From Planctomycetales bacterium (GTDB taxonomy: Bacteria; Planctomycetota; Phycisphaerae; SM23-33), in contig JAUWNJ010000021.1 of the NCBI GenBank assembly GCA_030612725.1, positions 1-53,686 of the forward strand: DNA of 53,686 nucleotides, written 5' to 3'. A program made the position numbers and the translations under genes. The notes below the pieces were generated by a model. The model was not told where the DNA came from. It saw nothing but the letters and a program-made list of their open reading frames with translations, and did no database searches. Positions within the stretch are counted from its first letter, which is position 1, and every line of letters begins with the position of its first letter. Shown here piece by piece: positions 1 to 53,686 of this stretch.

Positions 1-80
<80 letters not shown>

Positions 81-2461: not shown

Positions 2462-2489
2462 GTAGGCTGGGCCGATAGGCCCACCTTTT
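2462..2489 (+). repeat. GTAGGC...GCCCACC palindromic repeat, single half copy
   Basis: GTAGGCTGGGCCGATAGGCC followed by CACCTTTT. The same unit recurs at 16881-16909 and, as two inverted arms, at 18579-18646 inside pyrK. Here it lies in the noncoding gap between two divergent genes. The unit contains an internal GGGCC..GGCCC dyad, so each copy can fold by itself. Confidence 0.8.
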
Positions 2490-16847: not shown

Positions 16848-16880
16848 ATATTCTCTGTACCGCATTCTCTTTACCACGAT

Positions 16881-16909
16881 AAAGGTGGGCCTTCGTCCCA
16901 GCCTACCGG
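16881..16909 (-). repeat. GTAGGC...GCCCACC repeat overlapping the pyrD stop codon
   Basis: The minus-strand sequence is GGTAGGCTGGGACGAAGGCC followed by CACCTTTA, a copy of the unit at 2462 and 18579. The TAG inside GGTAGGC serves as the stop codon of pyrD (16905-16903), so the repeat supplies the end of that gene. Confidence 0.75.
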
Positions 16910-17826
16910 AGCGCGCCGATGATTTCCGTGACGCTGCTGTGGTTGTGGGTTTCGAGGTATTCGGCGATACCGTCGCGGATTTCGGTCAGGCAGGCGGGAT
17001 TGACGAACGTCGCCGTTCCGACAGCCAGTCCTGTCGCGCCGGCAAGGAGGAACTCTATCGCGTCGTGGGCCGACTGCAATCCGCCCATGCCGATTATCGG
17101 GACGCCCGCGCCTTTGGCTACCTCCGTCCAGACGCGATGAATCATATAAACGGCGATGGGTCTGATTGCTGGACCAGAAAGCCCGCCGGTGCGGTTGGCC
17201 AGCACAGGCCTGGCCGTTTCAATGTCGATGACCATCGCGGTAAAAGTGTTCACCAGCGAGAGAGCATCCGCGCCGGATTCGACGGCGGCACGGGCCGGTG
17301 CGGTGATGTCCGTTACATTCGGCGAAAGTTTGACAATCAGGATTTTGTTTCGGCAGGCTTTTCGCGCAGCGGCTGTGATCTTGGCGACCTGCTCGCGGTC
17401 GGTTCCGAACTGAATCCCGCCTTCTGCCACATTCGGGCAGGAGATGTTCAACTCGACGCCCGATACAACTTCGACATGATCAAGCCGCTCGATAACGGAT
17501 ACATATTCGGCGATGCTCGCCCCGGCTACATTGACGAACACCGGAACGCCAAGCCGCTCCAGAAGCGGGACCTTCTCATCCAGAAACGCCTCCAGCCCGA
17601 TATTGGCAAGGCCGATGGCGTTGAGCAGCCCTGCGCGGGTCTCGACGATGCGCGGATAATCGTTTCCGGGGCGCGGCGCGGGCGTGATGCTCTTGGTAAC
17701 GAACGCCCCCAGCCCGCTCAAATCAACGAAGTCGGCGTACTCGTCGGCGTACCCGCACGTCCCCGAAGCCGTCATCAACGGATTGGCCAACTTCACGCCC
17801 GCAATGTCAACGCTCAAATCAATCAT
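16903..17826 (-). CDS. pyrD: Dihydroorotate dehydrogenase B, catalytic subunit
   Basis: A 307-residue class 1B dihydroorotate dehydrogenase. It oxidises dihydroorotate to orotate with FMN in pyrimidine synthesis and passes electrons to NAD+ through PyrK. Landmarks are GVKLANPLMTASGTCGYADE, the catalytic-cysteine motif ELNISCPN, VKLSPNVTDI, SLVNTF and the FMN phosphate site GMGGLQSAHDA. Length is typical. It lies downstream of pyrK on the same strand, with about 60 bases between them that are made of TAGTAGCC-type repeats. Its stop codon lies inside a dispersed palindromic repeat, so the C-terminus has probably been slightly altered by that element. Confidence 0.94.
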   Translation of the reverse strand: MIDLSVDIAGVKLANPLMTASGTCGYADEYADFVDLSGLGAFVTKSITPAPRPGNDYPRIVETRAGLLNAIGLANIGLEAFLDEKVPLLERLGVPVFVNVAGASIAEYVSVIERLDHVEVVSGVELNISCPNVAEGGIQFGTDREQVAKITAAARKACRNKILIVKLSPNVTDITAPARAAVESGADALSLVNTFTAMVIDIETARPVLANRTGGLSGPAIRPIAVYMIHRVWTEVAKGAGVPIIGMGGLQSAHDAIEFLLAGATGLAVGTATFVNPACLTEIRDGIAEYLETHNHSSVTEIIGALR

Positions 17827-17887: not shown

Positions 17888-18823
17888 CTATTCCCATAAT
17901 AATTCGCCCGCATTGAATACGGGGCCATCTTTGCAGGCGAGTTTGAACATCCATCCCGGCGGTTCGTCGGTTTTGACTTTTATTGCACATCCTTGGCAGA
18001 CGCCCATTCCGCAGGCCATGTGGCGTTCCATCGCCAGTTGACATTCTATCCCAGACGGGGCGCAAATGTCAGCAACGGCTTTCATCATAGGTTCAGGACC
18101 ACAGGCATAGACAGCCATCTCTGCCGTTCGACCCCGCTCTAGCCATTGGGCGAAGGCTTCGTGCACCATACCGGCCTGTCCGAGCGAGCCGTCGTCGGTA
18201 GTTATCTCGAAGAAGCCCTTTTGCTCTTCGGTCAGAGGCAATGCTGACGCTGATCGTGCGCCGACAAATGCCTTTACGTCCTTGTCGGCGGACGATAGCG
18301 ATTCAGCCAGGTATATCATTGGTCCGATGCCCGTTCCGCCGCCGATAACCACAGCCAACGGTTTAGAGTTATGGGTTTCGAAGCCATTGCCCAGCGGCCC
18401 AAGGATATTGACCTCGTCGCCGATTTCGCGTTCGGAAATCCAGTTTGAACCGGCTCCGACAACGCGATAGAGAATATCCAGTTCGACCGTCCCGGCAGGC
18501 ATATCGCGTCGCCCAGCCAGGCTGAAAGGTCGCCGCAATAGCGGAACGCGCCCGGCGGTCTCTGGTTGCGATAAATCCGTAGGCTGGGCCGGAGGCCCAC
18601 CTTTTTCGTTGGCGGATATAAAGGTGGGCCTATCGGCCCGGCCTACCGCCTTTCCACACAGAATGTTGATAAACTGCCCCGGATGCGTCGGCGGGAAATT
18701 CTCCATTCCCAGGCAAAGGAGATAATGTTCCGGGCAGAGCGGGTCATTGGACAGCACGCTGGCTGTGAATACTCCCCTTGCGCGGGGTTCGGCGAAAGAT
18801 TGCGTGTTATGCGACGACGACAT
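17888..18823 (-). CDS. pyrK: Dihydroorotate dehydrogenase B, electron transfer subunit, with repeat-coded insert
   Basis: A 311-residue FAD/[2Fe-2S] protein that moves electrons from PyrD to NAD+. It shows the FAD-binding LLRRPFSLAG, the NAD-binding GGGTGIGPMIYLAE and YACGPEPMM, and the iron-sulphur cysteines ACGMGVCQGCAIKV with a later LACKDGPVF. Homologues run almost directly from GQFINIL to PLLRRPFS; here about 33 residues are inserted. 24 of them (VGRADRPTFISANEK then GGPPAQPTD) are encoded by the inverted-repeat element at 18579-18646, read in frame with no stop. I start at the ATG at 18823, since the extra N-terminal codons of the open frame show no family similarity. It is followed by pyrD. 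pilT is divergent. Confidence 0.88.
   Translation of the reverse strand: MSSSHNTQSFAEPRARGVFTASVLSNDPLCPEHYLLCLGMENFPPTHPGQFINILCGKAVGRADRPTFISANEKGGPPAQPTDLSQPETAGRVPLLRRPFSLAGRRDMPAGTVELDILYRVVGAGSNWISEREIGDEVNILGPLGNGFETHNSKPLAVVIGGGTGIGPMIYLAESLSSADKDVKAFVGARSASALPLTEEQKGFFEITTDDGSLGQAGMVHEAFAQWLERGRTAEMAVYACGPEPMMKAVADICAPSGIECQLAMERHMACGMGVCQGCAIKVKTDEPPGWMFKLACKDGPVFNAGELLWE
18579..18646. repeat. Palindromic element inserted in frame in pyrK
   Basis: The left arm GTAGGCTGGGCCGGAGGCCC plus ACCTTT (18579-18604) and the right arm AAGGTGGGCCTATCGGCCCG plus GCCTAC (18621-18646) are inverted copies of the same unit, differing by one indel and a few bases. They flank a 16-base centre. Single copies are at 2462 and 16881. 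The whole element is open in the pyrK frame, so it contributes protein sequence. Confidence 0.9.
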
Positions 18824-51310: not shown

Positions 51311-51919
51311 TTAATCTCCTGCGGCGTTTCGCCCTGTCTCGAATGCTTCGATATTCGCGTCGTGCAGTTTTTCAGGGAGATTGGCCTTTATTGAGTCTAA
51401 CCAAAACGGCAGATCGATTTCCAGATGATTACTTAAGATTCCCAGCATTGCAACGTTGAGGCTGCGACGATTACCAAGGGCATTTACGTCGATTTTGTCG
51501 GGGCCAATCAGGACGCCTCCTTCACGAAGCACATGACGATTGACATCGACCTGCTCGCCGTCGAGCACGACGAGGAAGTCCGCCCGGCCCGATGGAATCA
51601 TTGGGCTTAGGACGTTTTTTCCGAAGCGGACGTCGCTGGCTACTGATCCGCCGCGTTGACTCATTCCGTGAATCTCGCTTTTCTTTGTGTCAAGCCCCGC
51701 CCGAAAAGCCACCTCGGCCAGGATGTCCGACGCCTTCAGGACGCCCTGTCCGCCAAGTCCGGCAATTACGACATTTGTAACAGCAGTACGTAGCACGGGC
51801 GTCTCGCCCGTGAATTCCGTGGATTGTTTCCTGTGTTTCCGCACGGGCGAGACGCCCGTGTTACGTATTCGCACGGGCGAGACGCCCGTGTTACGTGTTC
51901 GGTTAGTTTGACTACTCAT
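51311..51919 (-). CDS. iorB: Indolepyruvate oxidoreductase subunit beta, with repeat-coded N-terminal extension
   Basis: A 202-residue protein. The catalytic-subunit partner fold runs from about residue 47 ('[20 protein letters not shown]', '[20 protein letters not shown]'), typical of IorB/2-oxoacid oxidoreductase gamma domains. The first 45 residues are unlike any IorB. They consist of repeated short peptides, NTGVSPVR twice and TGETPVLR once, encoded by three CACGGGCG..CGCCCGTG palindromes (51794-51890). The ATG overlaps the iorA stop by eight bases, so translation probably begins there and includes the extension. A start closer to residue 47 would be the alternative. Confidence 0.85.
51794..51890. 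repeat. Three CACGGGCG..CGCCCGTG palindromes inside iorB
   Basis: The 19-base hairpin CACGGGCGTCTCGCCCGTG is at 51794-51812, and its reverse form CACGGGCGAGACGCCCGTG at 51842-51860 and 51872-51890. Flanks also repeat (GTTACGTATTC, GTTACGTGTTC). They lie in the 5' part of iorB and are read in frame. A related palindrome is at 46543-46599. Confidence 0.92.

Positions 51920-53606: not shown

Positions 53607-53686
<80 letters not shown>

Follow-up and report, generated by a model that had tools for sequence, protein, structure and literature searches.

GTAG-tagged REPIN in frame within planctomycete pyrK, and unrelated palindromic repeats in the same PyrK loop of related species

Introduction

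In an uncultured Phycisphaerae-like planctomycete, the gene for the dihydroorotate dehydrogenase B electron transfer subunit (pyrK) contains a palindromic sequence that is read through in frame. What is this sequence, and how might it have come to lie within a housekeeping enzyme? A first-pass annotation, made from the DNA letters, described it as an inverted repeat inserted at positions 18579-18646, reminiscent of the palindromic elements (RPEs) of Rickettsia. Here, we consider the identity of the element, its dispersal, the state of the same loop in related species and the explanations that could account for it.

Materials and Methods

The source genome (G000) is a MAG, and the window is the whole 53.7-kb contig (53,686 nt) that carries pyrK. 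It was compared with three congeners (G001, G002 and G003) and with a relative outside the genus, G025, which is the nearest outgroup for the PyrK loop. Every genome compared, G000 included, is a draft MAG. The close named relatives of PyrK all come from Planctomycetota/Phycisphaerae MAGs, which bears out the planctomycete host proposed initially. A small two-gene tree groups the genus as (((G000,G001),G002),G003), with support values of 59 and 95. Locus L207 is identical to G003 across 3672 shared bases and was not counted as an independent species. Both ends of the window (1-75 and about 53611-53686) are C or G runs of ~70 nt that look like contig-end assembly artefacts.

The palindromic families, unrelated to one another in sequence, are labelled A-E here. 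In-frame copies were surveyed extensively, by searches and in selected genome stretches; the cases listed are a lower bound, with families C-E sampled less than A and B. A copy was counted as in frame only if homology was present on both sides of the element. Apparent in-frame copies at loci L004, L026, L104, L114 and L142 were dropped as ORF read-through of GC-rich palindromes without recognisable homology. A loose family-B pattern was discarded because it matched by chance, and a pattern with wrong internal spacing yielded mostly noise.

Results

The element within pyrK is a GTAG-tagged REP/REPIN of family A. It consists of two inverted units of 26 and 27 nt, arranged as GTAGGCTGGGCCGGAGGCCCACCTTT, a 15-nt spacer and then AAAGGTGGGCCTATCGGCCCGGCCTAC (Table 1). 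GTAG stands at the outer end of both units, as it does in the other family-A units listed. The fold of the 68-nt strand has an energy of -29.4 kcal/mol versus -11.4 +/- 2.2 for shuffles (z -8.3). Single units (26-27 nt) are short imperfect palindromes that form hairpins, with z values of -2.4 to -2.9 for the two in pyrK, and the first two bases of GTAG are left unpaired. The coordinates initially proposed for the inverted repeat proved exact for this 68-bp dimer, and the pyrK frame indeed crosses it without a stop, from V60 to T82. The proposed gain of 24-33 residues did not hold: the insert contributes 23 residues, and the loop has become longer by a net 7 residues compared with that of G025 (33 residues by the same definition).

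Table 1. Positions of pyrK, pyrD and family-A units in the window
Feature	Position	Strand	Remarks
pyrK, dihydroorotate dehydrogenase B electron transfer subunit	17888..18823	-	311 aa
PyrK loop between strand GQFINIL and motif LRRPFS	18539..18658	-	low pLDDT in AF2 model
Family-A REPIN within the pyrK frame (pair of inverted GTAG-tagged REP units)	18579..18646	-	encodes VGRADRPTFISANEKGGPPAQPT, residues 60-82
REP unit 1	18620..18646	-	GTAGGCCGGGCCGATAGGCCCACCTTT
REP unit 2	18579..18604	+	GTAGGCTGGGCCGGAGGCCCACCTTT, opposite strand
pyrD	16903..17826	-	TAG stop codon (16905-16903) supplied by GTAG of the solo REP
Solo family-A REP, 3' end of pyrD	16876..16906	-	
Solo family-A REP	2462..2489	+	outside flanking ORFs 84-2339 and 2526-2885

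On either side of the insert, PyrK matches the solved PyrK chains 5ksw and 1ep1 by both sequence and fold. In the AF2 model, mean pLDDT is 50-57 for residues 61-90 and above 90 in most of the remaining protein. Between the confident strands 51-55 and 100-107, the insert region is modelled with short helical turns of 3 residues only. The peptide encoded by the insert is presumably made in the cell, and PyrK would be expected to function unaffected by it. The predicted tryptic peptides of the insert are ADRPTFISANEK and GGPPAQPTDLSQPETAGR.

Family A is dispersed in G000. Single copies elsewhere in the window, already noticed in the first-pass annotation, correspond to the two solo units in Table 1. 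Genome-wide, GTAGGNNGGGNC has 118 matches compared with 55 for the reversed control, and 103 family-A units are readable. Their consensus is GTAG-GCTGGG(A/C)C-loop-G(T/G)CCCACCTT, with a variable loop that often holds nested palindromes. The units are single or form head-to-head dimers, many of the pairs having short spacers. Of 68 family-A loci, individual annotation showed about 6 to lie in frame within identifiable genes. The frames seen are V-G-x (PyrK and the LipB-LipA linker) and R-L-G (LipA, HypF and an M56-type peptidase), the two that avoid TAG.

Two further repeats were observed in G000. Within 90 nt after 15 of 60 family-A units, at loci such as L003, L011 and L024, there is an AT-rich dispersed motif GAATATTGAATA..., which suggests that the two together form a composite repeat. 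Another palindrome, CACGGGCGAGACGCCCGTG, is present in the window at 51794-51890 in three copies, two of which form a 30-bp tandem, and a related sequence occurs at locus L050. It probably represents one more REP-like family.

In the congeners, the same PyrK loop is filled differently: by family A in G000, by family B in G001 (32-bp perfect arms) and by family C in G002 (39-bp perfect arms). Families B and C both recur as dispersed repeats across the G000-G003 set. The loop of G003 has only 10 residues, and its sequence matches the start of family B at 13 of 14 nt in the same frame. Simple arithmetic puts the probability of so good a match by chance at about 3e-4 when all of B and both strands are allowed for, and the loop probably contains a family-B remnant. 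Among ~65 distinct PyrK loops outside the genus, we found no palindrome with ungapped arms above 10. Within the family, nearly all of these outside loops are 33-35 residues long; most others have 25 or fewer. In G002, an in-frame TGA replaces the glycine codon after DDGSL, downstream of the insert, and homology continues to the end of the gene (L067). This TGA may be a recent stop or an assembly error, and one of the three decorated pyrK copies may thus be dead or misassembled.

The comparison refines the initial view of the element as an insertion. A dispersed palindrome has been inserted in frame, as proposed, yet it is not a clean addition, since most of an ancestral loop of 33-35 residues has been replaced. 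The right flank of the G000 element, DLSQPETAGRVP, still resembles the outgroup sequence HITQPETAGRVP; about 19 ancestral residues have thus given way to the element. The first-pass annotation had also held that an unrelated sequence of equal length in close homologues would speak for an ancestral loop. Such homologues do exist, yet in two of them the sequence is itself a dispersed palindrome from another family, which strengthens the case for insertion. The occurrence of unrelated palindromes in the same loop of related species indicates that certain loops are repeated landing sites for such repeats.

PyrK is one of several proteins of the genus and of G025 that have in-frame copies of families A-E; dispersed copies of all five families are found across G000-G003 and G025, with D and E being dispersed repeats in G025 and G003. 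LipA has family A in both G000 and G001, a single unit in G003 and an empty site in G002. Its linker to LipB likewise carries family-A REPINs in G000 and G001 and no REPIN in G002; in each of these three genomes, a single reading frame joins LipB to LipA (L051 in G000, contig C9, about 69-71 kb). The HypF site is occupied by A in G000, by E in G003 and by D in G025. In PduO, family B is present in G003 and G000 and absent from G001 and G002, the G000 gene being split across contigs C14 and C5 at its B copy. LipA, HypF and PduO all pass NCBIfam equivalog cut-offs despite their inserts. Family D lies in an MBL-fold protein of G001 (empty in G000) and in a DUF3604-like protein of G000, both proteins identified by eye, and one G000 protein without an assigned family has an in-frame B. 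The M56-type peptidase contains two tandem family-A REPINs in both G000 and G003, with a Pro/Glu/Ala-rich linker in G001. In the small two-gene tree, the G000-G003 pair spans the deepest split of the genus, and this common double insertion suggests long persistence in frame.

Y1_Tnp genes, the candidate RAYT transposases, are present in all five MAGs, with six above the cut-off in G000. Copies of family B flank one of these genes in G000 (C9) and one in G001 (C157), and copies of family D flank others in G002 (C232) and G025 (C305). A search of the five draft MAGs for a Y1_Tnp gene with family-A units on its flanks found none. Mobilisation by RAYTs is therefore supported for families B and D; for family A, we infer transposition of the same kind.

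Discussion

The explanation that we consider best, with a probability of about 0.88, is that a GTAG-tagged selfish REPIN of the RAYT-mobilised kind occupies a permissive loop of PyrK, as part of a process acting throughout the genus, whereby five or more unrelated families refill a few loops. The family-A REPIN would be a non-autonomous selfish hairpin dimer, and such elements would insert at many places in the genome. Intragenic copies would survive only where three requirements coincide: a loop that tolerates 20-35 extra residues, a frame that avoids the TAG of GTAG and a net length change that is a multiple of three. The same permissive loop could then be refilled by different families in different species. 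Most insertions are accompanied by loss of neighbouring host residues, which is not expected from simple RAYT or IS200-type insertion.

The meeting of several families in one loop might also reflect active targeting beyond tolerance, with an older loop palindrome attracting later insertions and families replacing each other. RAYTs act on single-stranded hairpins, and nested palindromes are frequent in the hairpin loops of family-A REPs. The range of occupants would fit as well, both in HypF (A, E and D) and in PyrK, where G001 has B, G003 has a B remnant and the other two genomes have A and C. However, no B remnant lies beside the A element in G000 pyrK, the right flank in G000 retains more ancestral residues than that in G001, and permissive loops alone give the same pattern. 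We regard such attraction as unlikely and favour a small number of tolerant loops as the reason why the families meet. Quite unlikely, too, is that unrelated families preferentially enter or replace an existing loop palindrome, making the loop peptide a mobile-DNA cassette that is exchanged as species diverge.

Selection for function, whether of an mRNA hairpin regulating the pyrimidine genes or of a new property of the loop, would agree with the retention of in-frame M56 copies on both sides of the deepest split in the genus. It is nevertheless very improbable given three unrelated sequences in one PyrK loop, an almost loopless G003 and the presence of the same elements in unrelated genes. 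Misassembly, in which repeats glue unrelated contigs together, deserves attention because family-B repeats do break contigs, as at G000 PduO. Yet the PyrK frame is kept on both sides of the insert in separate MAGs whose repeats differ, the G000 element sits inside a long contig, and the M56 double insertion and the LipA insertion each recur in two or more MAGs; an artefact is accordingly hardly credible. The sequence of the PyrK loop varies within the family, as would be expected if it were an ancestral hypervariable loop with merely coincidental palindromes. We rejected this reading, the probability of which is close to nil, on the basis of dispersal and outgroup data: the inserts are multi-copy repeats dispersed in their own genomes, two of them with long perfect arms, and the loops outside the genus (about 65) have no such palindromes.

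Tolerance of a selfish REPIN by the PyrK loop thus remains the preferred reading. A single genus provides a comparative series of ancestral, differently filled and eroded loops for in-frame REPs in housekeeping enzymes. This series makes it testable whether repeats are merely tolerated or steer the next landing, and how selfish DNA turns into new protein segments.

Comparison with known systems

REPINs were reportedly described by Bertels and Rainey in 2011 as mobile units of two inverted REPs and a spacer, associated with RAYT transposases, and are said to be typically extragenic. The elements described here share the inverted REP pair with a spacer and, in families B and D, the Y1_Tnp genes flanked by elements. 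They differ in having intragenic in-frame copies and, for family A, in that no flanking RAYT was found.

The resemblance to Rickettsia suggested in the first-pass annotation holds insofar as palindromes lie in frame. Their tag, GTAG, sets them apart from the Rickettsia elements, and the closest counterparts are intragenic GTAG-tagged REP dimers (PMC3733652) rather than RPE-1. Like RPEs, the present elements are dispersed palindromes found in frame in unrelated protein genes (PyrK, LipA, HypF, PduO, M56 and others). RPE-4 and RPE-6 have a CGTC tag, and RPEs form the parallel on the CGTC side (PMC3733652); their length when first reported was ~150 bp (PMC10969869). The pyrK element is distinguished by both tag and length, being GTAG-tagged and 68 bp long.

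Di Nocera et al. (2013) described intragenic GTAG and CGTC REPs in frame, dimers included, that encode 20-30 aa (PMC3733652). The PVC superphylum has them as well, O. terrae being rich in intragenic GTAG REPs, and the GTAG of REPs often supplies TAG stops (PMC3733652). The planctomycete elements agree with those REPs in the GTAG tag, hairpin units, inverted dimers, in-frame copies and a REP-supplied stop, here that of pyrD. In-frame GTAG REPs inside genes are thus of an already known kind. In the open-access literature searched, we found no paper on in-frame REPINs in Phycisphaerae. The sequence families and the host differ from those described previously (PMC3733652), as do the empty, shared and eroded states and the presence of as many as three unrelated families (the GTAG tag being established for only some) in one loop across four congeneric genomes. 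Two Xanthomonas species have different REPs at about the same recB site (PMC3733652), a single brief precedent for the re-use of one site by unrelated families, which is unusually clear in the present genus.
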